The translations under genes and the position numbers were made by a program. Below are positions 1 through 26,772 of a stretch of 28,664 nt of DNA, piece by piece. The number at the start of each line of letters is the position of its first letter. Position 1 is the stretch's first letter. Under the pieces are notes generated by a model. It did no database searches. It was not told the DNA's origin and was given only the letters and a program-made list of their open reading frames with translations. Origin of the DNA: a virus; IMG/VR virus record IMGVR_UViG_3300005095_000526, positions 1 to 28,664 of that record. One strand, given 5' to 3'.

Positions 1-3000
1 TCTCCACAATGAAGGAGCCCTATTATACACAACAGGAATCTCTCTACCTAGTTCATGTAAAGTCTTTATGGCTTTTGGATCTTTGTTCTCTATCATTTCT
101 TTTGTTTGAATTGGAGAATATCCAGCTTTTGACAACCTTCTTGATATATGTGGCTCATACATCTTCAATCCAAGCTTTTCTGGAACCTCAATCTCATCAA
201 CACCTATATCTGTTCTTGCTGGCTTAATAACGCCTCTTCCGCTCATAAACTGCTTAACTCTAAGCATATTCTTTTGGGCGTATGATTGCTTTGGTGTGTC
301 ACCACCAAGTATTCCAAGTACTCCCTTTACTCCTTTATCTTTCATTTTTTTGTCAGTAGTTTCTTCTGTGCCAAAAAGTGCCCCAACTGACTTAAACAAA
401 TCTTTCTCAAGTTCAAGCCTTGTTTTCCTGTCTAGCTCTTTTGAATTTCTAAGAGTATCGTTTATTACATGTATATCCTGATAATGCAAATTTAAATCGT
501 TTACAGATATCTCTCCATTTGAATTTTTAGATATCGGCCTAAAAATAGGAGCTATTACGGGGACTTTTGATATAAAAGCGTAGTCGCTAACATTCCCGCC
601 AGCGTTCTTTACTTTTCCTAGCATTTTGATAGTCTTGACATTTCTATTCACAAGCTGTGGGTTTTTTGTTGTTTTACTTTCGTGCACCAACTCTTTTAAC
701 CTCTTGTCGGCATCTATTTGATCTACCTTCTTCATTATATATTCGGACCCGTGCTCTTCTATGTCCCTATCTATCTCCGCAGTTGTTTTTCCAAGAAGTG
801 CTGCTATATTATCCTTATATATCGGATTTAATATTTTTTTTGCAAGATTTATATGCCCGCTTCTTGTTCCTTTTGGTCCTCCAAATATTTTTTCATCAAA
901 TAGACCGCCCTTTACAACTCTTCCATCTTTTGCATATATAGTTTCTGCGGTCCTAATTGCTCCACCTGATCTTTTTGCTATTTCTTTATCTGTCAAAGGA
1001 ACTACAGAATATTCTTTTGTTTTCTTGTCCTCAATTATCTTCGTTCCAAGTTGCTCAAGATACGCCTTGAACTTCTCTGATGCAAAATTTTGAGATGGAG
1101 GAGGTAACGGAAGCCCATTTCTAAAGGCATCAAAAAATTTGTCATTCCTCTGTCCTTTTATATGTTTGGCCTCCCTAAGTAAATCTTTCGCATCATGAGC
1201 AAGCAATGCATTAACTTCCATGTTTGAATATGATGCTGCAGATTCCTTTCCTCCTTTCAATGGCTGCTCATTTATGTCGGTTCCACCAACGCCAACTGCA
1301 CTTGAGCCTGATTCAGAATCCTTAAATAACTTAAGTATATATGGATTACCGACAAATACCTTCTTCGGAAAAGGCTTTCCTGTTTCTGGATTAATTAACT
1401 CTTCATATAAATCAACTTTATGCTTCTTTGCCTCTTCCTCCATAAACTTAAGATTATCTGACTTCTCATAATGTTCTAAGACATATTTTTTGCCTTTTTC
1501 TTTTGTTATCTTGCTCAGACCTGCTTCTATCAGCGACCCAGGATTTGTCCTTGATACAACACCTGCAGAAGTCATTAGCAAGTGAACTGGCTCACCGTCT
1601 TTACTGTGTGGCATTTCATGGTCTGGAAGTATTTTTGTTATAACCCCCTTATTCCCTTGTCTTCCAGAAAGCTTATCACCTATCTTGGCCTTGCTTTTTG
1701 TTTTTATTGTAATTCTTATATCTCCACTTCCACCTGACACATCAGTTATCTCGCCTTCGTCAGAGTGGTGCCATGTATCTATCACTGCCTTGTAAGGCTT
1801 ATGCATAACCTTCTCAAGCCTTGACTTTATCTGTTTTGAATCAGCCCTTACGAGCTTAAGAACAAGTGGCTGACCATAAACTACTTTTGAACCTTTTTTA
1901 ATAATTCCACGATGATCATAATTTTCAGCACCCCATTTAGCAACAATTTTTGGATACAATGTTTGAAATTTTTTCAAATCAAGAATATCATTAGGGGAAA
2001 CATTTATTGTCTCTTTGTACATATGCTCAGATGTCATCATTTCTGCAGCAGTTTCCGAAATTATTAAGCCATCATTTCTATTTCCAGGCATAGACATCCA
2101 CGCAGTCCTAAGATTCTTGCCAAGAGCCAAATGGCCTTCCTTTGTATAATTTGATTCAGCTAAGTGTTGTCCTTTTTTTACCTTGTCACCAACCTTTACT
2201 ATTGGTTCATGGTGTATGAAAGTTTTCCTTGCAAGAGGCATATTCTCTGCGTACCCAACTTTCATCGTTCCATCTTTTGTTTTTATATGAATCTTTCCAT
2301 CAGATATTTTTGTAACGACTCCTGATTCAGGAGCAAACGGGAGATGCTCCGACTCTTTCACTACTTTCTTGGCATAATCTTCGCCTTCTACTTTTACAGA
2401 TACATTCGGAGCCTCACGATCAGTCAGCGATAACGCCTGCTGAAGATGCTTCTGGGCCATATTAGCCCTATTTGCATCATTGGACCCGATTATTGCCACC
2501 ATATTAGCAGACGGTGCGTGCATTGCAGAAGATTCAGGCAAAATATAATCTATATCTTTCTTGCTTTTTGCCCTAAAATCTGAATCTTTATATCTGACCA
2601 TTACTCCATCTGTTTTAAGTCTATCTTTAGATATTGGGTAAGCAACCTTTTTATCCCACAAATCAGCAATCTTTTTTATCTCTTCTTTTCCGGTCTTTGC
2701 ATTTATTACTTTTATTGCTGGAGCGCCAGTGTCATCTATATATGAATTCCCAGTTACAGCAAGAGTAATTCCAACAGATGCGCCCTCTGGTGACACTATT
2801 GGGTCAATAAAGCCAAGCTGACTTGGGTGCACTGCTTTGGTATCAAGATTTAGTGCCCTTGAGTCGCCAACTCCGCCTTCTCCCATAGGTGTAATAAAAT
2901 GGGTTGTAGTGTGCATCATTAACGGGTTATACTCCTCGCTAAGACGTGATGCCTTTGCTGACGTAAGAAATGATTTTATAGGCCTTGTCAGCATTGCGCT

Positions 3001-3972
3001 ACCTGTTCCAAGGGCATCTTCAACTTTTGATGTATCAGGATTGCTTAATTTGAACTTTATCTTATTTAACTCTTCTCTTGATTTTTTTTCAAATGCCTCA
3101 GCCAACATATCTTCAGGAGCTACAATCTGTTTAAACATCATATTCTCCCTGTCGTCCTGTGGCTCCTCTCCTTTATATACGTTTAGCAGCTTCTTGGATG
3201 CTTTAAGCATAACATCTCTATCTATGCTTTCTTTGTCTTCACCAAGTGTATTTTTTATTACATTCCTATCTACCTTTGCTGCCTCAAGAGCCGCATTTAA
3301 CTCATCTTTTATGTTGTCCTTTCTTATATCCTTGCTGTTATAGTAAAAAGATTTTAGAAATTTTATACTATCTGCAGGAGAATATGTTTTTTTGTTTTCT
3401 TCAAAAAGCTTTTCACCCCACGCACTCTTCATCTCATCATCTGATACCCCAGAATCCTTTAGAATTGAATATAATGGGACATGAGATGTTCCTACTTTTA
3501 CCCTGAAAACTCCGTTTTTATCAATTTTTTGAACAAAATTCCTTCCTTTTGCAAGGTTGAACATTGACTGTATTTCACCATTCCTCTTTTTGAGAGTATA
3601 TACACCTGGTCTAAGCCTTTGCTGATACGGTATTACATATGAATTCCCCTCAATAACGAATGATTCCTTTTTTGTGTAGTCTGGAATCCTCATTATTGTT
3701 CTTCTTTTTTTATCTATCACTTTCCCGGTTTTTTTGTCGATCAACTTAACATCACCTTTTAGTGAAGACATTACAGAGGATCCATTAACAAGAGCTTCTT
3801 TTACCCTATCAATATCATTATCTGGCTCTTCAACTGAAAGGTTTGATACGTCTATTCTATAGAAATTGCCATCAACTGGGAAGCTTTTCTCAACAGCCTC
3901 TTTTATCTTTTCTTTTACAAGCCTGTCTGTCTCGCTTGATGATCTGTTAAGTTTTCTGAATTTTTTTGACAT
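1..3972 (-). CDS. Fused RNA polymerase beta-beta' subunit (C-terminus beyond window start)
   Basis: DNA-directed RNA polymerase with the two catalytic subunits in one chain; 1324 residues lie in the window and the frame is still open at base 1. Beta landmarks, in order: VPLYSILKDSG (beta LPVTVLLRALG region); residues 344-368, matching the rifampicin-pocket region; HPSQLGFIDPIVSPEG (382-397, beta HPTHYGR-CPIETPEG); GDKLSGRQGNKG (765-776) with the two conserved active-site lysines; MEV at 918 (beta GEMEVWAL). Beta' then begins within a few tens of residues: GGLFDEKIFGG (1022-1032), SGRGVI (from 1244, beta' SGRSVI) and NRAPSLWR (1317-1324, beta' LNRAPTLHR). The catalytic NADFDGD motif should follow just outside the window. 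The four-cysteine zinc ribbon of beta' is absent. The ATG at 3972 has AAGG upstream. Portal and replication genes nearby make it phage-borne rather than a host rpoBC. No alpha, omega or sigma gene is seen here. Confidence 0.95.
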   Translation of the reverse strand, partial: MSKKFRKLNRSSSETDRLVKEKIKEAVEKSFPVDGNFYRIDVSNLSVEEPDNDIDRVKEALVNGSSVMSSLKGDVKLIDKKTGKVIDKKRRTIMRIPDYTKKESFVIEGNSYVIPYQQRLRPGVYTLKKRNGEIQSMFNLAKGRNFVQKIDKNGVFRVKVGTSHVPLYSILKDSGVSDDEMKSAWGEKLFEENKKTYSPADSIKFLKSFYYNSKDIRKDNIKDELNAALEAAKVDRNVIKNTLGEDKESIDRDVMLKASKKLLNVYKGEEPQDDRENMMFKQIVAPEDMLAEAFEKKSREELNKIKFKLSNPDTSKVEDALGTGSAMLTRPIKSFLTSAKASRLSEEYNPLMMHTTTHFITPMGEGGVGDSRALNLDTKAVHPSQLGFIDPIVSPEGASVGITLAVTGNSYIDDTGAPAIKVINAKTGKEEIKKIADLWDKKVAYPISKDRLKTDGVMVRYKDSDFRAKSKKDIDYILPESSAMHAPSANMVAIIGSNDANRANMAQKHLQQALSLTDREAPNVSVKVEGEDYAKKVVKESEHLPFAPESGVVTKISDGKIHIKTKDGTMKVGYAENMPLARKTFIHHEPIVKVGDKVKKGQHLAESNYTKEGHLALGKNLRTAWMSMPGNRNDGLIISETAAEMMTSEHMYKETINVSPNDILDLKKFQTLYPKIVAKWGAENYDHRGIIKKGSKVVYGQPLVLKLVRADSKQIKSRLEKVMHKPYKAVIDTWHHSDEGEITDVSGGSGDIRITIKTKSKAKIGDKLSGRQGNKGVITKILPDHEMPHSKDGEPVHLLMTSAGVVSRTNPGSLIEAGLSKITKEKGKKYVLEHYEKSDNLKFMEEEAKKHKVDLYEELINPETGKPFPKKVFVGNPYILKLFKDSESGSSAVGVGGTDINEQPLKGGKESAASYSNMEVNALLAHDAKDLLREAKHIKGQRNDKFFDAFRNGLPLPPPSQNFASEKFKAYLEQLGTKIIEDKKTKEYSVVPLTDKEIAKRSGGAIRTAETIYAKDGRVVKGGLFDEKIFGGPKGTRSGHINLAKKILNPIYKDNIAALLGKTTAEIDRDIEEHGSEYIMKKVDQIDADKRLKELVHESKTTKNPQLVNRNVKTIKMLGKVKNAGGNVSDYAFISKVPVIAPIFRPISKNSNGEISVNDLNLHYQDIHVINDTLRNSKELDRKTRLELEKDLFKSVGALFGTEETTDKKMKDKGVKGVLGILGGDTPKQSYAQKNMLRVKQFMSGRGVIKPARTDIGVDEIEVPEKLGLKMYEPHISRRLSKAGYSPIQTKEMIENKDPKAIKTLHELGREIPVVYNRAPSLWR

Positions 3973-4002
3973 ACGCTGCCTTGAATGAAGTCTTTTAGTG
4001 AC

Positions 4003-4011
4003 ATTCTAACA
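4003..4011 (-). promoter_or_regulatory. Possible extended -10 promoter of the RNA polymerase gene
   Basis: Read leftward, the 47-base gap before the polymerase gene contains TGTTAGAAT: a TGn extension followed by TAGAAT, five of six matches to TATAAT. No -35 element is visible at the usual distance. A start about 7 bases downstream would give a leader of roughly 24 bases. The match is short in AT-rich DNA, so the call is tentative. Confidence 0.3.
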
Positions 4012-4019
4012 TATGGCAG

Positions 4020-4448
4020 CTATTTTTTTGGATTTCTAGTGAAAGATGATGGTAGTGTTTCAATTTTTGATGGAATATAAAATACATCCATATATTTATC
4101 TGAATTTATTTCATCTGTAACTACATTGTAATCAGATATTCCGATATCGTCTACTACAAATTTTATAATATTTGCAATAAATGTAACAAGTTTTTCATTT
4201 GGCCTAGAGTCTTCTGTCATAACGACTATTCCAACACCATTGTTATTCAATCTTGAATCACGAATATTTGCACACCTCTCTGCTAGAGGCCTAAGCTTAA
4301 GCATGCTATATTCTTCCTCGTTTTCATCCCCTTTAAATATATAAAAATGAGGGTACGGGTACACAAGCCCGGCAGTAAAAGATTCATCTAATACTGCCGG
4401 AAGGTTTTTGTCTGTTCTTGTTACTACAAAGTTACTTATCTGTCTCAT
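4020..4448 (-). CDS. Unknown protein, 142 residues
   Basis: I do not recognise the family. The protein starts MRQISNFVVTRTDKN and alternates hydrophobic strands and polar loops (for example NNNGVGIVVMTED, FIANIIKFVVDDIGI). It looks like a small soluble alpha/beta protein without signal peptide, membrane helix or cysteine cluster. Its start overlaps the end of the upstream 244-residue gene by 17 bases and the Shine-Dalgarno signal is weak, so translation is probably coupled. The next leftward gene is the fused RNA polymerase, 47 bases away. A polymerase accessory factor or a virion protein are both possible; nothing in the sequence decides between them. Confidence 0.75.
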   Translation of the reverse strand: MRQISNFVVTRTDKNLPAVLDESFTAGLVYPYPHFYIFKGDENEEEYSMLKLRPLAERCANIRDSRLNNNGVGIVVMTEDSRPNEKLVTFIANIIKFVVDDIGISDYNVVTDEINSDKYMDVFYIPSKIETLPSSFTRNPKK

Positions 4449-5166
4449 CTTGATTTTCTTGCCTTGGGAGCTTCATGAAGTCTCTCTTGATATGCTCAGG
4501 AAATCCGTCACTTGCTGACGCTATTTGTGCAAGTGCTCCCATGCCTAGACCAAATATAAGAACAAACCCAGGGTACTCTTTATCTAATGCTGGCTCACTC
4601 TGCATAACAATAGGCATCCTAGCAACAGGACCGATTGTTTCAAGTATGGACCATGTATCATTAGTGAATACACCAGAAAGCATAAACATTTGAGGGCCAT
4701 TATCAGTTACAACAATCTCATGGAACGTTGCCTCGTCCCCTTTGTACATATTTTCTGCCATTCTTGCCATTACGGAATAATCAACCTTATCGCTGATTCC
4801 AACATCGAAAGATGAGCTATCATCTTTAGATTCCATCTCAATAACGTTCTTGTACACACGCAATAGATTAATTGACACAAAAACACTATCTTGCGTCATT
4901 ATGATCTCTTTATCTTTTGCTGTATAACTATTATTTGCTGATAGAATCGCTAAATTTGAAAAGAAGTCAACATGCGAATCATCTTTGTCGAATTTAACCC
5001 ATCCAAATTTAAGATTCAATGGAGACTCAATATATTCCTTTACATTCTCCAAATAGTCACCATCACCAAGTTTTTCAACCTTGTCATAGAACTCTCCGAC
5101 ACTCTCAGATTCTCCGAGGGCACCTGCGAGCACGACAAGATCTGGTGCTGCAAAAAGTGCCTGCAT
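4432..5166 (-). CDS. Unknown protein, 244 residues
   Basis: Unrecognised protein beginning MQALFAAPDLVVLAGALG. The first ~20 residues are hydrophobic but no positive charge precedes them, so this is not a classical signal peptide. Another hydrophobic, glycine-rich segment, FVLIFGLGMGALAQIASA, lies near the C-terminus (about 202-219). The tail is charged (PRQENQDETDK). The ATG at 5166 is preceded by GGAAAG and lies two bases after the stop of the upstream small gene; its 3' end overlaps the following 142-residue gene. With neighbours on both sides it forms a four-gene leftward run ending in the RNA polymerase. Function unknown; a virion component is one guess. Confidence 0.75.
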   Translation of the reverse strand: MQALFAAPDLVVLAGALGESESVGEFYDKVEKLGDGDYLENVKEYIESPLNLKFGWVKFDKDDSHVDFFSNLAILSANNSYTAKDKEIIMTQDSVFVSINLLRVYKNVIEMESKDDSSSFDVGISDKVDYSVMARMAENMYKGDEATFHEIVVTDNGPQMFMLSGVFTNDTWSILETIGPVARMPIVMQSEPALDKEYPGFVLIFGLGMGALAQIASASDGFPEHIKRDFMKLPRQENQDETDK

Positions 5167-5168
5167 TA

Positions 5169-5357
5169 TTACTTCCTTTCCTGCTCAAGCATTTCTTTTC
5201 TCAACTCAACTTTTTTCTTTGCAATTGAATCAAGTGCCTTTCTAAGTCTTACTGCTCCAGCTTTTGTATATCTCTTTGTTAGGTTCTCCCATTCTGTCTC
5301 AACTTGCCTGATATCTCCAAGAATCTCTTCCATCACCATTTTGATTTTATCGTTCAT
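5169..5357 (-). CDS. Small charged helical protein, about 62 residues
   Basis: The frame is open from an ATG at 5402 (77 residues), but I prefer the ATG at 5357 (MNDKIKMVMEEILGD). It has GGAG six bases upstream, and a consensus promoter at 5401-5430 would start transcription near 5394, downstream of the first ATG. The product is rich in Lys, Arg and Glu (AVRLRKALDSIAKKKVELRKEM) and looks entirely alpha-helical with probable coiled coil. I do not recognise it. It could be a DNA- or protein-binding small factor. The 244-residue gene follows after two bases, so both probably come from the same promoter. Confidence 0.6.
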   Translation of the reverse strand: MNDKIKMVMEEILGDIRQVETEWENLTKRYTKAGAVRLRKALDSIAKKKVELRKEMLEQERK

Positions 5358-5400
5358 GTCTAACTCCATTTTTTTAATTTTCTCGCTTTTGCGATTCTGC

Positions 5401-5430
5401 ATTATAGCCTTTATATCAACGTTTTGTCAA
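5401..5430 (-). promoter_or_regulatory. Consensus sigma70-type promoter, leftward
   Basis: Read leftward, TTGACA (5430-5425) is followed after 18 bases by TATAAT (5406-5401); both hexamers match the consensus perfectly. It sits directly after the stop of the 896-residue gene. Transcription would begin near 5394. The -10 box overlaps the first possible ATG (5402) of the next small gene, which argues for the internal ATG at 5357 as the real start. Host RNA polymerase could use this site to drive the three small genes and possibly the fused RNA polymerase gene. Confidence 0.75.
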
Positions 5431-5437
5431 GTGAAAA

Positions 5438-8128
5438 TCAGCTTATAGACAATATATTAGACTTTGACATCTTAATCGCAGCAAAATTATCCCTATCTCC
5501 ACCTATATATTCCTTGTATGCCTGATATACACTTTTCTTTCTATCTGAGCCTATCCTCCAGTTCTTTGATGCATTTTCAGCATTCATATACCCATCATAC
5601 ATTCTTATAGCATCATAGAATTCGACAAACGACATATCTGTATTTTTTCTTATCATCTCATAAAGCCTGTACACATCAAATATAAATACAAAAGTGTCAG
5701 TATCATCGTTATCTATATATGCACGATGAAAAGCTTTATCTACATAAACCATATCTCCAGCCTGCGAATTTCTTAAATCTATATCGAATACCTTATCTTC
5801 TACCTTCTTCGCTCCATCAACCACAGAAAGTATCATCTTGTCTATTCTTATATTGCTTCTAAGCCTTGCGCTCCTAAAAAACGTATCCATCATTCTGTCG
5901 TGAAACTCAATACCAGGCATATATCCAGTTAATTCGCAAAGGCACATTGCTGGAAGTATCTTCTCAAAGAAATCCATATATGCATTTTTATCTACTATAC
6001 TTTTCTCCTTTATATATTTTCTTGCTTTATCAACAAATCTGTCTTCTATTTGACTTATTTTTTTTGTATTATGAATAACATAATGAGCTATATTGCCAGC
6101 TTCATCATCATAGTCGTATAACCTTGCCTCTGCATAATTTGATACACGTGGTATAAAATCAAAGACTATTGAATCCTCTATTACCATCTTTGAGTCGCTG
6201 AAAATAAGTAGCGGTGATGTATTTGTTGTTGTTTTTACAATATCAGAACTTCTTGATCTTGTTAGTTGTTCATCTCCAAATCTTTCACGAGCTATGGTCC
6301 ATATAGTCTTTTTGATCTCATTGTTGTTATCTGTAACAAGTATACTTGTGCTTCCATCTATTATTGTTTTTATTACGAAATCATAATCAGTTTTCACTAT
6401 TCTTGCATTTCTAAAAACACCATTAAAAATCCTGTACTTTATTCCATCCTTTGCGTATTCACTAGCACCTGATATGGAAGCAACAAATTTATTTGCTCTT
6501 TTTACAAATGGAAGCAATATTGATGACATCATCATGATAGCAAAGCTCTCATACTCCTTTTTGTCTGCAACTATATAACCAGAGCATGCGTCTACAACTG
6601 TTTTCATTGATGATACGACTGACCGCTTTGTTGGCTTAACCTTTGGAACAGGTGAATTTATTAAATTAGGATCAACGATATACCCATCTTTTGATACCCT
6701 TCCATTTAACCCAAACACCATACCTGAAGATGAATATACCGGGGTCTCTCCAAGCATATGTGACCCTGAAGTTCTCTTTGCTCTAAATATTGGAAGCATT
6801 GAGAACTCTCTGTGTATAACTTTTGATACTATTGAAAATATATAATTATCTACACTAGAAAAACCTGGAATAGTCTTATCTCTGTTTATTCCACATGCAT
6901 TTGATATAAATCTAAATCCTCCAAGATCTGGTATTAGCTCATTTGTTATTCCAGATTTATCTATTGTGAATTCTTTAAAATATTTCATTTTCTTATTGTA
7001 GAAAATTATAGAACTTGAATCTCCATTTAGTCTTACCTTCTTTGCGCATAACTCAATATTTCCGTTATCTATCAATTCTGAGATAACAGACTCGTCACTA
7101 TTATCTCCGCCCTCTATATACGGCCTTATGATATCTACAATATCTTTCTGCAATTCTTTGTATAGCGCAGTAAGAAGCATATCCTTTTCTACCGGGTTGA
7201 AACCAGATGCGCTTTTAGCTATATCTATCATGAACGGAATAGCAGAAGATGAATGGCTGCTATACAAATCTAAAATTTCATTTGCATAAAATGAAACAAT
7301 ATCATTATCACCAACAACTATCGCAACTTCTTTATCTGCACTCTTTTTTATTGAGTGTACAGCAGAATAAATAAATTGCTTATCATCGCAATCTATGTTG
7401 AAAGTTCTAAAATATTTTGTTGCATTACTTATGCTATCTGTGCTATCAGTTGACAAGTATATTACTCCAGGAGATAACGCAGATTCTCCATATGTATCTA
7501 TGTCATCTATGTTTCTAACAGTTACAATATCCTTTACATCTATATTTGTAAGTTTGTCCTCAAGAAATGCAGGTCTATCTACATCAAAATATCTAGCTGG
7601 TATAAAAATGCTTCCATTGTCAAGATATACCTCAAACCCGCTAAGCCTCTCATATATGTCAACATAATATCTACACATATGACCTTCATACATAAAAATA
7701 TCCTGCAGCACATTCTCTATAACTGCTGATACGTTTGCAAACAGCTTATCTGCCGCATCTTTTAATGGAATCTTAAACTTATATCCGTTTGGTTTTAGGA
7801 ATTCCTCTATTACATACAGTACATTTTGATTTTTCACCTCAAACTCGGCGTATTTATCGTACTCCTTTTTCCCAAAAGGGAATTTAACACCATACGAATA
7901 TGCCATTTTGCTCATTCTGGTAAATTCGTGCTCGGAAGAAGGCCCCAATTCGATAAACCTTTGCCTAAATACATAAAGTATCATATAGAAAGGGTCCACT
8001 CTCCATCTTCCATCGATAATATATCTTCGCTCGTCGAACAAGATATCTATTTCGTCCTTTTTGGATATTTTCTTAAAAAAATCAGAATTTTCCTGTATAA
8101 AATCCCATATTTGATCAAAATTAATCAT
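5438..8128 (-). CDS. Large unknown protein, 896 residues
   Basis: Largest unrecognised gene of the window. The protein is soluble-looking, rich in Asp, Ile and Lys, with no signal peptide, no convincing membrane helix and no Walker A motif. One stretch (about residues 540-660) faintly resembles the C-terminal ATPase of phage primase-helicases: a strand ending in Asp with Asn residues (SILVTDNNNE), then TSPLLIFSDSK, like the TPLIIxSN segment of those enzymes. The P-loop glycine/lysine is missing, so any such domain would be degenerate. A virion protein or a transcription-related factor are equally open. It is the first leftward gene after the divergent region and has its own candidate promoter; TGA stop at 5438-5440. 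Confidence 0.85.
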   Translation of the reverse strand: MINFDQIWDFIQENSDFFKKISKKDEIDILFDERRYIIDGRWRVDPFYMILYVFRQRFIELGPSSEHEFTRMSKMAYSYGVKFPFGKKEYDKYAEFEVKNQNVLYVIEEFLKPNGYKFKIPLKDAADKLFANVSAVIENVLQDIFMYEGHMCRYYVDIYERLSGFEVYLDNGSIFIPARYFDVDRPAFLEDKLTNIDVKDIVTVRNIDDIDTYGESALSPGVIYLSTDSTDSISNATKYFRTFNIDCDDKQFIYSAVHSIKKSADKEVAIVVGDNDIVSFYANEILDLYSSHSSSAIPFMIDIAKSASGFNPVEKDMLLTALYKELQKDIVDIIRPYIEGGDNSDESVISELIDNGNIELCAKKVRLNGDSSSIIFYNKKMKYFKEFTIDKSGITNELIPDLGGFRFISNACGINRDKTIPGFSSVDNYIFSIVSKVIHREFSMLPIFRAKRTSGSHMLGETPVYSSSGMVFGLNGRVSKDGYIVDPNLINSPVPKVKPTKRSVVSSMKTVVDACSGYIVADKKEYESFAIMMMSSILLPFVKRANKFVASISGASEYAKDGIKYRIFNGVFRNARIVKTDYDFVIKTIIDGSTSILVTDNNNEIKKTIWTIARERFGDEQLTRSRSSDIVKTTTNTSPLLIFSDSKMVIEDSIVFDFIPRVSNYAEARLYDYDDEAGNIAHYVIHNTKKISQIEDRFVDKARKYIKEKSIVDKNAYMDFFEKILPAMCLCELTGYMPGIEFHDRMMDTFFRSARLRSNIRIDKMILSVVDGAKKVEDKVFDIDLRNSQAGDMVYVDKAFHRAYIDNDDTDTFVFIFDVYRLYEMIRKNTDMSFVEFYDAIRMYDGYMNAENASKNWRIGSDRKKSVYQAYKEYIGGDRDNFAAIKMSKSNILSIS

Positions 8129-8245: not shown

Positions 8246-8341
8246 GTGAATACCTTAATTGGAATTGTCTTGGCAATATTCGCTTCTGCATTTATAATTG
8301 GGTTAGTATTTGGAATCTTTATAGCAAAAGATGACACATGA
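8246..8341 (+). CDS. 31-residue single-span membrane peptide
   Basis: A short gene with GTG start at 8246, preceded by AAGGAG at good spacing. The product is MNTLIGIVLAIFASAFIIGL followed by VFGIFIAKDDT: one hydrophobic helix of about 24 residues with a short polar tail. It would insert in the cytoplasmic membrane. Its TGA stop (8339-8341) overlaps the ATG (8338) of the NYN-domain gene, so the two are translationally coupled. As first gene of the early rightward series it could be a small host-takeover, superinfection-exclusion or lysis-related peptide; nothing in the sequence selects among these. Confidence 0.65.
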   Translation: MNTLIGIVLAIFASAFIIGLVFGIFIAKDDT

Positions 8342-8877
8342 ATGCAAAAACACTAATACTTTATGACAGAGAAAATATAAAGGTTCCAAGAAGCAAATCA
8401 TGGTATGAGGTACCATTTATAAATATAGAAGTTTTATTCTCAAGAATAAAGGAGGAGTTCCCTTCTCTTGAATATAAATTCATAGTTTTTGCAAAAGACA
8501 AGAGCGAAACAGATCCAAAGTCACACGAAAAAATGGTATATGAAATGACAAGACTTGGAATAGACATAATTTTAAAAAAACCAAAGGAGAGTGAATCAAC
8601 AATCGACATTGATGGGAAAGAGATAAAGTACAAATATGAAGAATGCGATATGGATGGGAGTATTATTCATGAAATGCACAAGGGAGCTGAAGCATATGAC
8701 AGAATAATACTCATAAGCGGAGATGGTGATATGTATGAACCATTAAAATATATTATGGAAAAATTCGGAGCCGATGTGATAGTAATATCACACAAAGAAA
8801 GGCTCTCATCTAAATACTCAGATATAACAACAATAACTTTTTCCGACTTTATCGGTGAGCCGGACACAAAGGAATAA
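8338..8877 (+). CDS. NYN/LabA-like (PIN-fold) nuclease
   Basis: A 179-residue protein matching the NYN-domain layout, a PIN-like metal-dependent ribonuclease fold. The first acidic residue is in the opening strand (ILYDRENI, about residues 8-15, like the D-x-N start of the family). A second acidic site lies in ECDMDGSIIHEM (about 101-112). The hallmark ILISGDGDMYEPL comes near residues 123-135, followed by a final strand (ADVIVIS). Four acidic residues are therefore available for metal binding. It is coupled by an ATGA overlap to the preceding membrane peptide. RNA cleavage in the cytoplasm is the family expectation; the target, host or phage RNA, is unknown. Confidence 0.8.
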   Translation: MNAKTLILYDRENIKVPRSKSWYEVPFINIEVLFSRIKEEFPSLEYKFIVFAKDKSETDPKSHEKMVYEMTRLGIDIILKKPKESESTIDIDGKEIKYKYEECDMDGSIIHEMHKGAEAYDRIILISGDGDMYEPLKYIMEKFGADVIVISHKERLSSKYSDITTITFSDFIGEPDTKE

Positions 8878-8878
8878 G

Positions 8879-9277
8879 ATGACTATTACTCCAGAATTAT
8901 TAAAAAGAGAACTTGAAAGACTATCTCTGGTAGTAAAAGAAAAAGCAAAAGCAGACAGAGAAAAACTTGGAGCAAGAGGAAAACTACTTCGTGACCTTGC
9001 TGAAATAGGGTTTAGAAGATTCTCAAAAAACAAATTTGTATTCCATGTAAAAAACAATGATGAGTCAATTGTATCATTCATTGTTGAGATGAATGGAAAA
9101 ACTGCAAATGTGTACGAGGATCACTTTGTAGTAGTTGATGGAAAAGAGGTTCTGGCATCAACAACAGAAAAGCCATTTAGGAAGATAGGAGTCAGATATG
9201 GAAGAGTTCTCATGGAAATACACAAGAGAATTCTTGAATTAGAAGAAGAGTTCTTAAAGGATGTGTACCATGTCTAA
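8879..9277 (+). CDS. Unknown protein, 132 residues
   Basis: I choose the ATG at 8879, one base after the stop of the NYN gene, because AAAGGA precedes it at normal spacing. The N-terminal third is strongly basic and helical (KRELERLSLVVKEKAKADRE). The middle is beta-rich (FVFHVKNNDESIVSFIVEM, FVVVDGKEVL), and a charged helix ends it (ILELEEEFLKDVYHV). The family is not recognised. The 3' end overlaps the start of the RecE-like gene by eight bases, so the protein is probably made together with the recombination genes and may act with them. Confidence 0.7.
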   Translation: MTITPELLKRELERLSLVVKEKAKADREKLGARGKLLRDLAEIGFRRFSKNKFVFHVKNNDESIVSFIVEMNGKTANVYEDHFVVVDGKEVLASTTEKPFRKIGVRYGRVLMEIHKRILELEEEFLKDVYHV

Positions 9278-10199
9278 ATACAAAATAGAATCAGACATAA
9301 AGGAAATAGAGGACGCCGGAGTCGTGTTCGATGAATGGGTAGACATTGATGATGATCTATATCATTCCCTTCCTGGTATAAGCTCAACATCAATAAAATA
9401 CCTAATAAAAGAATGCCCACTAAAACTAAAAGCCAAGATGGAATCAAGTGAAAATGAATCATCTGAAAAATTTGTGCTGGGGAGGGCAATTCATAAGTTC
9501 ATTCTAGAAAATGACGATTTTGACAGTCATTTTGCAATTGCTCCTGTTGACGACAAGAGGAGCAGAGAATGGAAAATATTCATGAACAAAATGAAAGATG
9601 ACCCAAGAGAGATCATAAGAAAGTCTGACAAGGAAATGCTTGACGGAATCTTCTCTTCGCTCAGGAGACCAAAAGACGAAAACGGAACAAACACATATGA
9701 CGGCATCATCATAAACGACAACACACTGCGTGAAAAAGCTCTCTTTACCGTTGATAAAAAAAGAAATATTATCTTAAAAATAAAAGTAGATGTAAATTTA
9801 CTTGGAATGTTTCTTGACCTAAAAAGCACAAAGAACGCTAAACCATCGATCTTTATGAGAGATGCAGCAAATCTTGGGTATGCTATACAGGCAGCGTTTT
9901 ATCTATACGTAGCAAGGCTTTCCGGGAAAGATGCAAAATCATTCGGATTTATCGCAATAGAAAAAGAAAAACCATATCTACACTCTGTCGTGTTGATGAG
10001 CGATGAAGATATATCGCTTGCTCAAACAAAGGTTGAAAGAACGCTGGATGACCTGTCATTCTACATCAATAATGACATATGGCCTGGATACGAAGGCTTA
10101 AGAGAAGATAAAAAGTCCGAACCTCTATTTACTGTATGCCAACTACCATCGTGGTACAGATATTCACTTGAGGAAGAAAATGGCTTTGAAGGCCCATAA
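9270..10199 (+). CDS. RecE-like PD-(D/E)XK exonuclease
   Basis: A 309-residue phage exonuclease that would resect double-stranded DNA ends to give the single strands used by the annealase encoded next. The ATG at 9270 is preferred over 9261 because AAGGA lies eight bases upstream. Family features: substrate-handling N-terminus with SSTSIKYLIKECPLKLKAK, LGRAIHKFILE (the G-x-x-H site), the catalytic core KVDVNLLGMFLDLKST around residues 173-184 (Asp, then D-x-K), and AIQAAFYLYVARL near 205-217, the Q-x-x-x-Y motif of the RecB/RecE nuclease group. It overlaps the preceding 132-residue gene and is followed after 21 bases by recT, the standard phage pairing. Confidence 0.82.
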   Translation: MSKYKIESDIKEIEDAGVVFDEWVDIDDDLYHSLPGISSTSIKYLIKECPLKLKAKMESSENESSEKFVLGRAIHKFILENDDFDSHFAIAPVDDKRSREWKIFMNKMKDDPREIIRKSDKEMLDGIFSSLRRPKDENGTNTYDGIIINDNTLREKALFTVDKKRNIILKIKVDVNLLGMFLDLKSTKNAKPSIFMRDAANLGYAIQAAFYLYVARLSGKDAKSFGFIAIEKEKPYLHSVVLMSDEDISLAQTKVERTLDDLSFYINNDIWPGYEGLREDKKSEPLFTVCQLPSWYRYSLEEENGFEGP

Positions 10200-10220
10200 C
10201 AAAGAATCAGGAGTAACAAA

Positions 10221-11123
10221 ATGCCCGACATAACAAAACATGAACCCAAGTCAGTTGCAGAGAATGTGCTGACCCTTATCGCAGAAAAAAATAGCGATAT
10301 CGATAATGGAATATTGTTAAACAGAATAAACCAAATCATTGCAAAAACACCAAAGCTTGCGCAATTCCCAAGCAATGTTATTGCTGAGGCTATACTAAAA
10401 GCAATGATACCTGACCCAACACTCGCTTATCATGATGATATCTACTTTATACCATACGGAAATAAGATAGATGTAAGTTTCTCTCACAACTATCTACAGA
10501 AGCTTGCGTATAAAAATGGTGCTGTAAAAATAATCAATACATACCTAATATACGAGGGTGATATTGTAGAAATAACAGAAAATGGGTTAACATATAAAGT
10601 TCTACCATTCAAGCCTCAAGGAGAGTTTGTCGGTGTACTTGTGGACATCACATTAAAGAATGGTGAGAGAAAATATGGGACAGTAACAAGGGAGCATATC
10701 GAGCAGGCTAGAAAGGCATCAAAATCAGGAAATAATGGCCCTTGGAAAAACTGGTATTACGAAATGGCAAAAAAAGTTGCATTGAAAAATACCATGAAAG
10801 GGATAGATATATCTCCAGAGTTTAGCGATGCTGTTGCAATAGACAACGAAGATACAGATTTTGACAAAACCAATAATATAGAATCGTCAACATCTTCATC
10901 TTTAGAAGACGCAATGATTTCTTCCAGCAAAACAATAGCAACTGCTGAACAAAAAATAGAAGAACTTGGAATAGTTTTTGAAATTAGAGGAGATTGGGTT
11001 GCAATAAACATAGAGGCATCACCTGATGGGTCAGAAGAAAAACTAGAAAAGCTTGGTGCAAAAATAGTAAAAAAAGACAATAAGCCTGGATATGCATTCT
11101 TCAAAATAAGCGACATAAAATAG
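10221..11123 (+). CDS. recT: RecT-family single-strand annealing protein
   Basis: A 300-residue annealase that pairs complementary single strands during phage recombination and strand repair. The RecT core is clear: YIFIPYGNKIDV-like opening (YFIPYGNKIDVSFSHNYLQK), NGAVKIINTYLIYEGD (like YKxINVxxVYEGE), FVGVLVDITLKNGERKYG, TVTREHIEQARKASKS, and WYYEMAKKVALKNTMKG (like the FxxMAxKTxLKxLL helix). After the core, a Ser/Thr-rich linker leads to a small C-terminal domain (EELGIVFEIRGDWVAIN), perhaps for SSB or partner binding. AGGAG precedes the ATG. Placed right after the RecE-like gene. Confidence 0.88.
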   Translation: MPDITKHEPKSVAENVLTLIAEKNSDIDNGILLNRINQIIAKTPKLAQFPSNVIAEAILKAMIPDPTLAYHDDIYFIPYGNKIDVSFSHNYLQKLAYKNGAVKIINTYLIYEGDIVEITENGLTYKVLPFKPQGEFVGVLVDITLKNGERKYGTVTREHIEQARKASKSGNNGPWKNWYYEMAKKVALKNTMKGIDISPEFSDAVAIDNEDTDFDKTNNIESSTSSSLEDAMISSSKTIATAEQKIEELGIVFEIRGDWVAINIEASPDGSEEKLEKLGAKIVKKDNKPGYAFFKISDIK

Positions 11124-11132
11124 GAGTCACAT

Positions 11133-11300
11133 ATGAAGCTTGAAATAACTTTTGAGATATCAGAAAAAGAGCTTGCCGAAGCACTGCTTCCAAGCGGAGG
11201 AAAAATAAAATCAGTAGAAATACTGGAAACAACAAGACGCACCACAAGGACGAAATCTTCCCCTAAGACATCTTCCTCCAGGAAAAAGACGACGTCCTAG
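11133..11300 (+). CDS. Small basic-tailed protein, 55 residues
   Basis: A short gene with TAGGAG ahead of the ATG, nine bases after recT. The N-terminal half is amphipathic (MKLEITFEISEKELAEALLP). The C-terminal half is a low-complexity Ser/Thr/Lys/Arg tail (TTRRTTRTKSSPKTSSSRKK). The basic tail suggests nucleic-acid contact. The stop TAG at 11298-11300 lies inside an AGGAGG sequence, and a coherent reading frame continues in the +1 frame beyond it. The protein may therefore end here or continue by frameshifting. I do not recognise a family. Confidence 0.55.
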   Translation: MKLEITFEISEKELAEALLPSGGKIKSVEILETTRRTTRTKSSPKTSSSRKKTTS

Positions 11301-11315
11301 GAGGAAAAGCCCTCC
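11299..11315 (+). promoter_or_regulatory. Shine-Dalgarno-bearing hairpin between two small frames
   Basis: AGGAGG (11299-11304) is followed by AAAAGC and then CCTCC (11311-11315), so GGAGG can pair perfectly with CCTCC across a six-base loop. The stop codon of the 55-residue gene overlaps the AGGAGG. The hairpin could hide the ribosome binding site or assist recoding into the +1 frame. Confidence 0.45.
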
Positions 11316-11514
11316 AACGCTAGGAGAGTGGCTTCACAGCCTTGCAATACTTGAAAAAGAATGGAGAGAGGGCAAGCATGGAAGACATGTCGTCAAGAAG
11401 GCAAAAGAGCTAATAAGCAACAAGCCAATAACAATAACTGAGTGCCTATTGAGTCCAACAAAATATATGTTTAGGTTCAAGAATGGAAAAACAAGAACTA
11501 CCAATAGATATTGA
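11302..11514 (+). CDS. Small frame without ordinary start, about 66-71 residues
   Basis: This frame is open from 11218 to the TGA at 11512-11514 and contains no ATG, GTG or TTG before a late TTG/ATG near its end. Yet its translation looks like a real protein: GEWLHSLAILEKEWREGKHG, then ITITECLLSPTKYMFRFKNG. Options are a +1 frameshift from the 55-residue gene, whose frame it succeeds; a rare ACG start at 11317 with AGGAGG 12 bases upstream; or a sequencing indel splitting one gene of about 125 residues. Its end overlaps the start of the next gene (11483). Function unknown. Confidence 0.4.
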   Translation, partial: RKSPPTLGEWLHSLAILEKEWREGKHGRHVVKKAKELISNKPITITECLLSPTKYMFRFKNGKTRTTNRY

Positions 11515-11785
11515 AAAATTCAATGACTATATAGCATCAAAATTTCAATGGTTTGGAGTTACAATAAGTGATTTTTTTCCTGACAAGTTCAACGAACATG
11601 TTGACTATAGGAGGATAGATCACTTGATGTCTGATATTCGTATTGATGGAAACAAAATTGCCTTAATGCATCAAGACGATGACAGCTTCATAGAAAATCT
11701 AAAGGCATACATACCTACAATGAACTCAGTTATCAGGTTAAAGACTGATTACTACTTCGTATCAGAACCAACAAACTACGTATAG
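11483..11785 (+). CDS. Unknown protein, 100 residues
   Basis: A small acidic soluble protein starting MEKQELPIDIEKFNDYIASK. Aromatic residues are frequent (FQWFGV, DYYFV). There are no membrane helices and no recognisable motif. The start overlaps the preceding out-of-frame stretch and only a weak AGG lies upstream, suggesting coupling to it. It sits immediately before the replication initiator gene, 17 bases away, so a replication-related role is possible from position only. Confidence 0.6.
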   Translation: MEKQELPIDIEKFNDYIASKFQWFGVTISDFFPDKFNEHVDYRRIDHLMSDIRIDGNKIALMHQDDDSFIENLKAYIPTMNSVIRLKTDYYFVSEPTNYV

Positions 11786-11802
11786 AAAAGGAGGCCTACG
11801 GC

Positions 11803-13326: not shown

Positions 13327-13862
13327 CCCACATAGAGCTATTGTCCGCACTAATGAAGAAGCTTCCAAGGCTAAACAGAGAGGAGGGAGAGGTCCTAAAA
13401 AACATAGTTTCTGAAATAGCAAAAAAGGACAACTCTCTATTTGAGTTCTACGAAGAAGTAACCACCGAGAAGGATATACTCAGCCTTCCGGTGATAAAAA
13501 GAATAGCAGAGAAATATTCTGTTCCAGAGCTATACAAAGACCATATCCGTGAAAGATTTTTAGAATTCAAGCAAAATATAATGATGGTCTGCGATACAAA
13601 CAAAAATCTTGTTTCTAAAGGAAGGAGTCCTGGGCTAGATCCAGACAAATGGATGAAGGGCGGAGTTTCATTATTCTCATCAACAGAAAAAAAGACTATA
13701 GAGACTGCTGGCGGACTTGAAATGATATGCAGGAGTATACATAACGTCGGATACTTCGACTACTTATTTAAGCTATACAAGAAGTCAGCAACGGAAGTCT
13801 CTAAAATAAAATACTCTCTACTTATGTCCGGAAAAAAATCTGAGATAGAGTATAAAAGATGA
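13323..13862 (+). CDS. Unknown protein, possible helicase loader
   Basis: A 179-residue, mostly helical, charged protein without a P-loop or zinc cluster. It starts MTHIELLSALMKKLPRLNRE, and a Gly/Pro-containing loop in the middle (SKGRSPGLDPDKWMKGG) separates two helical parts. GGAGG lies just upstream, its ATG overlaps the initiator's stop, and its own TGA overlaps the dnaB start, both as ATGA. The order initiator, this gene, DnaB matches the slot that a helicase loader (lambda P, or DnaI-like proteins) takes in other phages. No sequence similarity to those is apparent, so the role is inferred from position. Confidence 0.7.
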   Translation: MTHIELLSALMKKLPRLNREEGEVLKNIVSEIAKKDNSLFEFYEEVTTEKDILSLPVIKRIAEKYSVPELYKDHIRERFLEFKQNIMMVCDTNKNLVSKGRSPGLDPDKWMKGGVSLFSSTEKKTIETAGGLEMICRSIHNVGYFDYLFKLYKKSATEVSKIKYSLLMSGKKSEIEYKR

Positions 13863-15307: not shown

Positions 15308-15321
15308 AAATAGGAGAGAGT

Positions 15322-15729
15322 ATGACTTTTTGCGAAGCATTAGATTCACTAAAGCATGGAGAGTATATTACAAGAGAAAAGTGGGTAGAAGAAAACCGGG
15401 AAAAATTCCTATTCATTCTCCCAGAAGAGGAAAGATATTTCTCTGAAATTGGATTAGCATCAGTAGTTCCTGAAGGAACAAAATTCTATATAGGAGATAG
15501 AATATATGTGTATGAGGGTGAACGAGTAGCATCTGAGTGGACACCGAATGGAAACGATATACTAGCTGAAGATTGGGGGATTGTTGACTTGTCATATCAA
15601 GGAAGTGACACCAATAGCGAAAACGAAGATGAACAAGATGATTCATTTGGAGAGCTTGAAAAAACGATAGAAGAGATTTTATCTACACTTGAGAAAATTG
15701 CAGATATCGCAATCAAAAAAGGAGAATAA
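15322..15729 (+). CDS. DUF2829 / Tad2-like protein (possible anti-Thoeris)
   Basis: A 135-residue protein. Residues 1-90 carry the DUF2829 pattern: MTFCEALDSLKHGEYITREKW (shown here as MTFCEALDSLKHGEYITR), the strand FLFILPEEE, and the closing motif WTPNGNDILAEDWGIV, like the family's W-x-x-x-x-x-DMLAEDWEIV. Phage Tad2 proteins of this family sponge the cyclic ADP-ribose signal of Thoeris defence. After about residue 92 comes an extra tail: an acidic Asn/Ser/Asp/Glu stretch followed by a helix (LEKTIEEILSTLEKIADIAIKKG), not usual in the short family members I know. AGGAGAG precedes the ATG; SSB starts one base after its stop. Anti-defence action is inferred from the family. Confidence 0.7.
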   Translation: MTFCEALDSLKHGEYITREKWVEENREKFLFILPEEERYFSEIGLASVVPEGTKFYIGDRIYVYEGERVASEWTPNGNDILAEDWGIVDLSYQGSDTNSENEDEQDDSFGELEKTIEEILSTLEKIADIAIKKGE

Positions 15730-15730
15730 A

Positions 15731-16189: not shown

Positions 16190-16197
16190 GAATAGTC

Positions 16198-18901: not shown

Positions 18902-18902
18902 G

Positions 18903-22363: not shown

Positions 22364-22372
22364 GATAAATAA

Positions 22373-23192: not shown

Positions 23193-23201
23193 GAGAGATT
23201 A

Positions 23202-23465: not shown

Positions 23466-24186
23466 ATATCCACTGCTTCAAGAAGAGGAAGATTTCTTCC
23501 TCTTGTCTTCAATAATATTTGCAGGAGATGTGTCAATATCTCTTCCAAAAAGACTTCATATCGTAGAAGATGTATATGTAACAGGTAGCCTTGAGTCCGA
23601 TACAGATATTGTTACTGGTGGTGCTTTTGTTATATATGGCCAGCTGAATTCAAAGTCAATACAGGCAAAAACACTTAAGGCTCTTGGAAGAAATATGATA
23701 TCCGGGGACCTTCTTACAAGCGAGTCTTGCATAATAGGTGCGACACATATAGAGGGGTCTGTGATAACTCACAATAAACTACTATCAGTTTCAACACTAA
23801 ATGTACTTGGGGATATTGGAATAAATGGAGAAGGAGATATATGTTTTGATTTGAAAGCTAAAGGACGAATCGCAGTTAATGGAGTTCTTGACTGCAAAGG
23901 ATATATAAATTGCTCAGAAATGAAGGTTAACTCAAAAAAAATATCAAGATACGGAAGAGTTTTATCAAATAAGACTAATGCTATTTTTTACGATAGAGGT
24001 TTCTCTGTAAAAGTACCTGGAGAAGGGTGGGTATTTGTTGAATCCGAAGATGTAGTACCGAAGATGCTATCTGATGATAAACTATCAATAATCGCCAAGG
24101 AAGCGCTTAAAGATACGATAAGCCTTATCCAAATTTCAGATGATATAACGTTCACATTAGAGCGCTGGGACACTACTGGCTCTTAA
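23446..24186 (+). CDS. Beta-helix (bactofilin-like) protein, 246 residues
   Basis: From residue 25 to about 165 the protein is a run of short strands separated by Gly/Asn/Asp turns (GDVSISLPKRLHIVEDVYVTG shown as GDVSISLP and VYVTGSL, GGAFVIYGQL, MISGDLL, HIEGSVI, NVLGDIGINGEGD, GRIAVNGVLDCKG). That is the pattern of a small right- or left-handed beta-helix, as in bactofilins and other polymer-forming proteins. A mixed domain follows (residues about 170-246). AGAGGA lies eight or nine bases before the ATG at 23446; a second ATG follows at once. It closes the rightward block and its last 14 bases overlap the portal gene on the other strand. Scaffold-like or virion decoration roles are both guesses. 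Confidence 0.65.
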   Translation: MMYITSKYPLLQEEEDFFLLSSIIFAGDVSISLPKRLHIVEDVYVTGSLESDTDIVTGGAFVIYGQLNSKSIQAKTLKALGRNMISGDLLTSESCIIGATHIEGSVITHNKLLSVSTLNVLGDIGINGEGDICFDLKAKGRIAVNGVLDCKGYINCSEMKVNSKKISRYGRVLSNKTNAIFYDRGFSVKVPGEGWVFVESEDVVPKMLSDDKLSIIAKEALKDTISLIQISDDITFTLERWDTTGS

Positions 24187-26002
24187 CAGCCTCTTTCCCT
24201 GCTCTATATATCTCTTTATTTTGCTTCATCTCAAGAAGCGCCTTTACAACACCATACAGAATATAGTTTGTTTTTGCCATCTCATCAAGCTGCGAACGTC
24301 TTGTGCCTTCATCCATCTGCAGAAGCTGTTCAACATACATCTCAGCTTCTTGCATTAATGCTTGCTGATTTATATTGCTAAAGCTGTTATTCGCCATCTG
24401 CGCTGCGCTCTTTGCCCGTTCCTCAATACTTGATGCAACTTCTTGCTGATAGTCTTGTAGCTCAAGCTGTTGCTTTATCTGCTCTTTTTGCTCATTCTCA
24501 AGTCGTCTTCTCTCATTTATCGCATCGAGATTAAATAACTCAAATAGTGTTCCAGCACTGATCTTGTCTGGTCCAGACATTGCAAGCTGTACAATTGCTG
24601 ACTTTTCAGCAAGATCATCAACAATCTTGAATGGAATCATACCTACACGTATTGGCTCTTTGTCCATAATTCTTGCAACTTTTTGAACAATAAACTCTAT
24701 TACGTCTTCAAGATTTGACGTAAGCCTTGCCAGCTGGTTCTCAAGAAGTCTAAGAGAACTCCCTTGAGCAGTATAGCTAAGGCCACCCTTGATAAATTCT
24801 ATTGGTATCCCAAGAGCATTGGCTATATTGGATTCAAGCTGATCGATTTCTTGGTTTAGTGATAACATTTTTCCATCACCAAGTATTGTTTCAACACCAA
24901 CTGGGAAAGGAGTTACTTGCACAGCAGATGGATCAAGCTTCCATTTATTAAGCATTGTATTTATTTTGTGAACAAAATCAGTTCCACCAATATAGTTATA
25001 CATATCTTGCGGACCAGACTGCTGAGCAGGGAAAATAGTTCTAAGCGGAACCATATAGTCTGATGCTATTTTTTCATTTGCTTTTCTAAGTATCATCAAA
25101 GTAAGAAATGCAGGTATTGCGGCAGTAAGCGCAGGCATTCCCCACGATGTACTTATCCCGCTAACTACTTCTCTTTTTGAATGGTAAATTGTTCCATTGT
25201 CAAACTTGAAGTAGTTGTTTGAAAGTGCTGCTTCAATCATTGGTATCGGTGTTGTGGCAAGAATCAATTTATCATTATTTTTTATAGATGTCTTTAGATC
25301 TTGTGGAACTTTGTAATAAAATTCCTCTTCGCCAGAAATTGTATTTGACGCTATCTCTATGTCATGTGGATTCCATACAACAATATTTATAGAGTCTTTA
25401 CTTTTGCTGTGATAGTCCTTGGCTGAATGTACTCTTATGCCATGACAGGTCTCACAATAACAACTAAAGGCAACAACAGTTTTTTTCTTTCTGCCGCTCT
25501 TCAGCTTGTTTGTAACATCTGAACTTTTCTTCTTTCCATCCTCATCGTAGAATTCCTCGTTCTCAATACTTCGAGGCTTGGACATAAAGACTTTTAAGTT
25601 TTTAGCATGCTTTATAGAGACACGTTCCCCACATGTATTGCAAACAAGTATTCTCGTTATTGGGGAATATACAGAAACAAAACAATTTCCATATACTAAT
25701 GTATTGTACGATATGTTTAGTAGTTTAGATTTTAAGTTTAGTGATCTTTCAAGTATTGATTTCCAACTATCAACATTTGCAGTTGTCCCCTCTAATTCAT
25801 CATCCCCAGTGTAGTATTTAAAATTTGTAACCGGGGTCTCAGAGAGCTTTTTTATGCCAGCAGCCGCAATCGCATTATTATATATTATAAACTCCATCCA
25901 GTCGAACAGCTCTTTTATGTTCGACGGCAAAGAGCTGCTGAATTGCGACAGTAGCGGATGCCTCTTGTATATCCGCCTTACATCAAAATCGCTGAAAACC
26001 AA
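24173..26002 (-). CDS. Portal protein with cysteine-cluster insertion
   Basis: A 609-residue portal that forms the dodecameric DNA channel of the capsid vertex. Start is TTG at 26002, with AAGGAT eight bases upstream. Portal signals: N-terminal helical wing (ELFDWMEFIIYNNAIAAAGI), NISYNTLVYGNCFVSVYSP, VVWNPHDIEI, the stem/clip part with SLNQEIDQLESNIANALGIP then IEFIKGG (the ALGIPxxFxxG motif), and a long Gln/Glu-rich C-terminal helix (EQKEQIKQQLELQDYQQ). Unusual is an insertion with C121-x-x-C124 and C181-x-C-x-x-C186 separated by a Lys-rich loop, probably a zinc ribbon. Its 3' end overlaps the rightward beta-helix gene by 14 bases. Confidence 0.85.
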   Translation of the reverse strand: MVFSDFDVRRIYKRHPLLSQFSSSLPSNIKELFDWMEFIIYNNAIAAAGIKKLSETPVTNFKYYTGDDELEGTTANVDSWKSILERSLNLKSKLLNISYNTLVYGNCFVSVYSPITRILVCNTCGERVSIKHAKNLKVFMSKPRSIENEEFYDEDGKKKSSDVTNKLKSGRKKKTVVAFSCYCETCHGIRVHSAKDYHSKSKDSINIVVWNPHDIEIASNTISGEEEFYYKVPQDLKTSIKNNDKLILATTPIPMIEAALSNNYFKFDNGTIYHSKREVVSGISTSWGMPALTAAIPAFLTLMILRKANEKIASDYMVPLRTIFPAQQSGPQDMYNYIGGTDFVHKINTMLNKWKLDPSAVQVTPFPVGVETILGDGKMLSLNQEIDQLESNIANALGIPIEFIKGGLSYTAQGSSLRLLENQLARLTSNLEDVIEFIVQKVARIMDKEPIRVGMIPFKIVDDLAEKSAIVQLAMSGPDKISAGTLFELFNLDAINERRRLENEQKEQIKQQLELQDYQQEVASSIEERAKSAAQMANNSFSNINQQALMQEAEMYVEQLLQMDEGTRRSQLDEMAKTNYILYGVVKALLEMKQNKEIYRAGKEAVKSQ

Positions 26003-26011
26003 AAACTATCC

Positions 26012-26161: not shown

Positions 26162-26171
26162 TTTAAACCCC

Positions 26172-26696: not shown

Positions 26697-26735
26697 TTTT
26701 ATATCCTTAAAGAATTGTTTTTGTTATATTGTAAA

Positions 26736-26741: not shown

Positions 26742-26755
26742 GCGTAAAACTGTAT

Positions 26756-26771: not shown

Positions 26772-26772
26772 T

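Follow-up and report, generated by a model that had tools for sequence, protein, structure and literature searches.

The polymerase gene at the edge of the window

The window, i.e. the whole stretch of DNA analysed here, is a viral record of 28,664 bases with a fused RNA polymerase (RNAP) gene at its left edge. An open reading frame of 1324 aa, starting with ATG, runs from position 3972 to position 1 on the minus strand, is free of stops and is open at the contig end. Since the frame stops directly after NRAPSLWR, the catalytic motif lies off the contig. The features used in this work are the following.

1..3972, minus strand: fused RNA polymerase chain, beta plus the N-terminal part of beta' (open frame; Pfam, PHROGs and PDB matches)
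1027..3972, minus strand: beta-like part, about aa 1-982 (PDB phmmer and model alignment to bacterial beta)
1252..2229, minus strand: Rpb2_6 region with the beta double-psi barrel, aa 582-907 (Pfam PF00562, 1e-41)
1645..1680, minus strand: GDKLSGRQGNKG with the two active-site lysines (E. coli beta K1065 and K1073), invariant in 57 of 57 family rows
1006..1026, minus strand: joint between the beta C-terminus and the beta' N-terminus, about aa 983-989 (model alignment ranges; sequence alignment)
1..1005, minus strand: beta' N-terminal part, through NRAPSLWR (PDB and model alignment to beta' from residue 3-5)
24173..26002, minus strand: portal protein, the lineage marker (PHROG 16240; homologues upstream of the RNAP in 123 of 144 loci)

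The original prediction, which described one uninterrupted frame running from beta landmarks into beta' landmarks, is borne out by the open reading frame, the Pfam and PDB matches and a structure model. All landmarks are present in the order given there (HPSQLGFIDPIVSPEG, GDKLSGRQGNKG, MEV, GLFDEKIFGG, SGRGVI, NRAPSLWR); the strand, which it left out, is minus. The Pfam domains Rpb2_3 (aa 345-407), Rpb2_6 (aa 582-907, 1e-41) and Rpb1_1 (aa 1083-1214) follow each other along the chain. When searched against PDB sequences, window aa 237-1006 matched bacterial beta, and a stretch that does not overlap with these matches, aa 1072-1324, matched bacterial beta' 180-433 (E 3e-17).

The structure model was built for aa 575-1324 and has a mean pLDDT of 84. 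Model residues 1-415 (aa 575 to about 989) align to bacterial beta 609-1069, reaching the C-terminus of that chain (Z 23), and model residues 409-750 (aa about 983-1324) align to beta' 5-506 (Z 24). The joint was placed at about aa 983-989 because the model aligns to the C-terminus of beta and then to beta' from residue 3-5. As modelled, the two subunits are fused end to end, virtually free of a linker. The N-terminal zinc-binding domain of beta' is absent throughout the family, and the zinc-site columns of the alignment are empty.

The active site is well conserved. Beta K1065, K1073, R1106, E565 and R678 together with beta' R425 are invariant in all 57 family rows, as are D460 and D462 of beta', the first two aspartates of DxDxD, in the 56 rows covered; the trigger-loop H936 is found in 47 of 47 rows. 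The relatives are mixed with respect to NADxDGD, having N at the site of the motif in 38 of 56 rows, and the window ends before this motif. The acidic E813 of E. coli beta is replaced by N in the window, a change that could weaken catalysis. In the rifampicin pocket the window chain carries H526T, R529F and S531T, from which rifampicin resistance is predicted.

Relatives, phylogeny and partner subunits

Scanning IMG/VR for close relatives using the window chain alone found nothing. Alignment-based scans were required, and these yielded 74 loci, followed by 278 related stretches of which 80 were retained; relatives are carried by hundreds of IMG/VR stretches. The identical joint in one frame is found in 128 of 144 related loci, Salmonella phage Arash and Vibrio phage D69 among them, and the window comes in addition; the set contains some near-copies. 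By type, the fused loci and the window comprise 86 full fusions, 27 with a separate gene for the C-terminal part of beta' (beta'C) and 16 that are cut, among them the window.

Three architectures were distinguished. Type I is the full beta-beta' fusion (86 loci, usually 2,011-2,157 aa), and its chain holds the catalytic DxDGD, the trigger loop and the second zinc site. Type II joins beta to the N-terminal part of beta' (beta'N) and ends about 95 aa past DxDGD, beta'C being another gene of 587-640 aa; it covers 27 loci plus cut ones, and Arash and D69 belong to it. Type III consists of three genes, for beta, beta'N and beta'C. A few members of the lineage show extra breaks (L069, L247). Using tblastn on phage records, the matching layout was found in Arash, whose gp206 has 1525 aa, and in Vibrio phage D69, with 1527 aa; in D181 a homing endonuclease gene splits it, and the matches of D148 have the same coordinates.

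Very long chains (L011, L028, L040, L047) had been considered as carriers of extra RNAP domains. This was ruled out, as they have inteins or homing endonucleases inside, and those chains of 1,900-2,640 aa that were checked carry such elements. Two Acinetobacter 'phage' matches (H5 and H6) turned out to be host rpoB/rpoC with adjoining ribosomal protein genes; they were left out of the phage evidence together with short unannotated 'phage' records.

That the gene belongs to a phage agrees with the portal gene on the same contig, which is homologous to the portal of the lineage. No capsid gene was recognised in the 28,664-base window.

A tree was calculated from 1,234 columns and 41 rows using LG+C20 PMSF. 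The bacteria form a separate clade (support 100), and the window falls outside the host rpoBC clade, within the fused phage lineage (support 99). The tree thus agrees with the original prediction of a bacterial-like polymerase, not phiKZ/AR9-like, in a phage lineage of its own. The polymerase was also called unusual; a separate lineage it is, but no lone oddity, with hundreds of relatives in IMG/VR and phages with a bacterial-like beta and beta' described in 2020 (PMC7481178). The fusion, the conserved active-site residues of beta and the place in the fused phage lineage can be read directly from the window sequence.

Types II and III together form a branch that includes the window (SH-aLRT 98), and type III is nested there (99). 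The architecture labels require four changes on the tree, the possible minimum. The AU test rejects a tree that puts type III with the split outgroups (p 5e-46), and the separate beta of type III is therefore best taken as the result of a secondary cut, unless the fusion arose repeatedly. A single origin of the fusion is the parsimonious reading and not a proven one.

A search for sigma- or alpha-like partners had been proposed and gave a divided answer. The alpha profile RNA_pol_L matched none of 20 records, while the control was found in 13 of 14 genomes. Profiles of sigma region 2 or 4 match in many records. When Arash gp10, a Sigma70_r3/r2 protein (Sigma70_r3 match 9e-9), was used as the query, 30 of 32 lineage records proved to have a similar gene, and so did every one of the 13 full-fusion records among them; the two records lacking it are of 85 kb and 134 kb. 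No gp10-like sigma was found in the outgroup phages Carin-5 and YerA41. The idea of a sigma restricted to the branch with separate beta'C was dropped, as full-fusion phages also have region-4 matches and gp10-like genes. A gene for an SNF2 helicase (Arash gp217) directly follows that for beta'C.

A proposed virion polymerase and its alternatives

The explanation that accounts best for the observations overall is an alpha-less, sigma-dependent polymerase with fused beta-beta'N, packaged in the virion and used for early transcription; we put its probability at roughly 0.75. The window gene would encode the catalytic chain of a phage bacterial-type RNAP, a single polypeptide that comprises beta and the N-terminal half of beta'. 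To judge from the nearest relatives, the DxDxD motif would lie a short way off the contig and the chain would end about 90-100 aa past it; a separate gene slightly downstream would supply beta'C with the bridge helix, the trigger loop and the second zinc site. The enzyme would be active without alpha, the covalent joint standing in for part of the alpha-guided assembly; in full-fusion members the entire beta-beta' chain would do so. Promoters would be recognised via the gp10-type phage sigma. The complex would be packaged in the virion, injected and used for early transcription, the host RNAP not being needed. The lineage may have started from one beta-beta' fusion, after which one branch lost the fusion stepwise, beta' presumably being cut after the catalytic barrel first and beta from beta'N later.

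We also lean, with less confidence, towards a wider reading, namely that these phages form a widespread lineage with a self-contained virion holoenzyme, having a fused beta-beta', no alpha and a co-packaged sigma, and later re-cut at two places, one of which is the original border between beta and beta'.

The role in the virion is suggested by the proteomics of Arash particles (PMC10585845). The fused chain gp206 has the most spectra of all proteins (3516), with 128 unique peptides and 100% coverage; the remaining spectra include 1210 for gp216 (beta'C), 467 for gp10, 1148 for gp217, 877 for the portal and 1333 for the capsid. From these values we calculated spectra per residue of 2.3 for gp206, 2.0 for gp216, 2.0 for gp10 and 1.5 for the portal. 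The similarity of the first three values points to roughly equimolar gp206, gp216 and gp10, near 1:1:1, and taken together with the sequence evidence the Arash data read as a packaged holoenzyme of beta-beta'N chain, beta'C and sigma. For packaging there is mass-spectrometric support from one phage, Arash, whose gp206 has 32% identity to the window chain, and for the window phage it is assumed by analogy. The late transcription suggested in the original prediction finds no support, as the Arash data suggest a virion enzyme for early transcription.

The polymerase could instead be produced in the cell to transcribe middle or late genes and have no place in the virion, its presence in Arash particles being carry-over. 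The Arash authors themselves propose either early transcription or carry-over from the cell (PMC10585845). The particles yielded 116 proteins, replication enzymes (primase, helicases) among them, and in relatives the RNAP gene lies near those for the portal and other head proteins. Against this, the fused chain is the most detected Arash protein, beta'C and gp10 are near-equimolar with it, and the second sigma, gp196, is missing from the Arash virion rows listed. We regard this alternative as doubtful. The second sigma might act with the host or the phage RNAP.

The extent of the window chain is a separate question. It could be a full beta-beta' fusion of about 2,050-2,150 aa, like the 86 relatives that make up the larger branch, and the AU test does not reject a grouping of the window with that branch (p 0.196). 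However, the window lies in the separate-beta'C branch with an SH-aLRT of 98, and further ties to that branch come from the replacement of E813 by N and from a short 750-aa segment length, which the window shares with it. Apart from the window, this replacement occurs in the 13 loci that form the L009 branch and nowhere else, and no full fusion is among those loci; E813 is retained in all bacteria tested and in nearly all other phage rows. The best matches of the window portal likewise fall in the subclade shared with the window RNAP. Since E813N and the portal matches both point to this branch, type II is expected for the window, and a full fusion is unlikely. We therefore regard the window gene, as far as its sequence goes, as very probably type II (beta-beta'N, with beta'C elsewhere), in which case the chain very probably ends about 130 aa past the contig with beta'C in another gene. 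Of the predicted beta-beta' fusion, the joint in one frame stands, and the beta' portion is most likely the N-terminal half only, as beta'C is separate in the nearest relatives.

That a host rpoB-rpoC fusion of the Helicobacter or Wolbachia kind was captured recently is hardly credible: such bacterial fusions exist, and one was met here in a MAG (L147, 2792 aa), but the tree sets the bacteria apart from the fused phage lineage, the beta' zinc-binding domain retained by L147 is missing from the phage family, and the neighbours of the fused gene are phage genes. Equally improbable is the joining of two genes by an assembly chimera or a sequencing error; the window is one metagenome contig with the fused gene at its edge, but the identical joint recurs in two isolates, Arash and D69, as well as in many metagenomes of independent origin, so that both chance and a chimeric contig fail as explanations.

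Comparison with known systems

In cellular RNAPs beta and beta' are separate and are united on alpha. The rpoB-rpoC fusions of Helicobacter and Wolbachia also have beta followed by beta' in one chain; they are cellular and come with alpha and omega. The L147 fusion differs from the phage lineage in its beta' zinc-binding domain, and the clades are separate.

How alpha-less phage RNAPs hold together is an open question according to a jumbo phage review (PMC7598289). The lineage offers natural variants from one chain to three, alignable residue by residue with bacterial RNAP, and a sigma-dependent virion RNAP, if true, would be a natural test of the tasks for which alpha is required. The phiKZ/AR9 jumbo phage vRNAPs and nvRNAPs are likewise alpha-less, with beta' cut in the same zone, past the catalytic barrel, and their virion enzyme serves early genes (PMC7598289), comparable to the role proposed here. 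These RNAPs consist of four or five pieces and have no sigma (PMC7598289, PMC13282480), whereas the lineage has beta joined to beta'N and conserves sigma-like genes; a co-packaged sigma would set it apart. The window does not have beta in at least two chains apart from beta', the trait of the jumbo phages.

The crAss-like gp66, YonO and QDE-1 resemble the relatives in having both barrels in a single chain, and some are virion enzymes; the window contig ends before the second barrel. Unlike the crAss RNAP, which escapes bacterial beta/beta' profiles (PMC7481178), the window chain clearly matches bacterial beta and beta'. Carin-5 and YerA41 share with the lineage a phage-encoded bacterial-like RNAP, but have beta and beta' as separate genes; beta' of YerA41 is cut in two, and the capsid of Carin-5 is Gp23.

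Phages with bacterial-like beta and beta' are already known as mReC, multi-subunit RNAP-encoding Caudovirales (Weinheimer & Aylward 2020, PMC7481178), described from IMG/VR contigs, some of more than 200 kb. As in the window lineage, their RNAP is homologous to bacterial beta/beta' and forms a clade apart from cells; the paper treats beta and beta' as subunits and names a fusion only for crAssphage. All major capsid proteins detected in mReC are PF07068 (PMC7481178). This capsid was found in none of 20 related records, and the profile matched in Carin-5, Rhizobium phage Y65 and one IMG/VR record. Two relatives whose sample numbers are close to 3300017989 were used to look for contigs of that sample (mReC1/3 in PMC7481178), and none was found. 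The mReC filters could well admit type I chains, so an overlap between mReC and the fused lineage is possible. No description of the fusion in these phages was found in the literature covered. In PMC10770324 multisubunit RNAPs are said, with no further detail, to have 'derivatives with fused DPBB domains', so that the fusion may already be recognised in a supplement.

The closest described system is Arash (OQ632216, PMC10585845), which like the window has beta and beta'N in one chain, of 1525 aa (gp206, with gp216 as beta'C), and a homologous portal. It differs in that E813 is kept and that the portal adjoins the RNAP. Its authors label gp206 'beta' and gp216 'beta'', and the accessible part of PMC10585845 does not mention the fusion, which annotation as 'beta' or 'hypothetical protein' masks. 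With Arash as a cultured member that has a laboratory strain as host, the lineage is open to experiment now.

Gene order and other genes of the window

The portal gene and the RNA polymerase (RNAP) gene are near neighbours in relatives of the window phage. In the window, a plus-strand block of about 16 kb carrying replication and nucleotide genes separates the two, and the genome looks rearranged. The following features were located in the window.

8338-24186, +, replication/nucleotide block (NYN, RecT, DnaB, SSB, Thy1-like, dUTPase, RNR)
1-8128 and 24173-28634, -, opposite-strand flanks of this block
5438-8128, -, gene for a protein of 896 aa, located 5' of the RNAP gene
12213-12557, tandem repeats with periods of 69, 45, 24 and 11 bases, within ORF 11803-13326
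15322-15729, +, Tad2-like domain protein (Thoeris anti-defence 2; Pfam, 3e-12)

The repeats encode recurring peptide units resembling VVPDQGPLE. The Tad2-like gene is likely a counter-defence gene. The 896-aa protein was without a match in Pfam, PHROG or the related loci.

Active site, inserts and a cellular fusion

The acidic active-site residue E813 of beta (E. coli numbering), unchanged in all bacteria tested, is replaced by asparagine in the window and in 13 further RNAP loci of the same branch (L009, L178, L179, L181, L183, L184, L186, L187, L189, L191, L192, L199 and L240). Several fused RNAPs (L011, L028, L040, L047) are interrupted by inteins or LAGLIDADG endonucleases, and the insert of L028 starts directly behind the catalytic DFDGD motif.

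A cellular fusion was found in a bacterial MAG.

L147:3417-11795, rpoB-rpoC fusion of 2792 aa, MAG CSMAG_2929

This fusion retains the zinc-binding domain and adjoins genes resembling nusG and ribosomal proteins. Two contigs with a fused phage RNAP, L098 and L099, were binned in a Deltaproteobacteria MAG and a Planctomycetaceae MAG, respectively, which is either a clue to the host or mis-binning.

Sigma and helicase partners

The open frame containing the sigma factor similar to Arash gp10 is much longer at locus L256 (record G036), exceeding 700 aa, and this sigma is perhaps fused to another protein. Salmonella phage Arash also carries a helicase gene beside its separate gene for the C-terminal part of beta' (beta'C).

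L003:23106-24524, SNF2-type helicase gene of Arash, directly 3' of beta'C

The helicase is abundant in virions of Arash, and the RNAPs of jumbo phages are likewise accompanied by similar helicases (PMC7824862).
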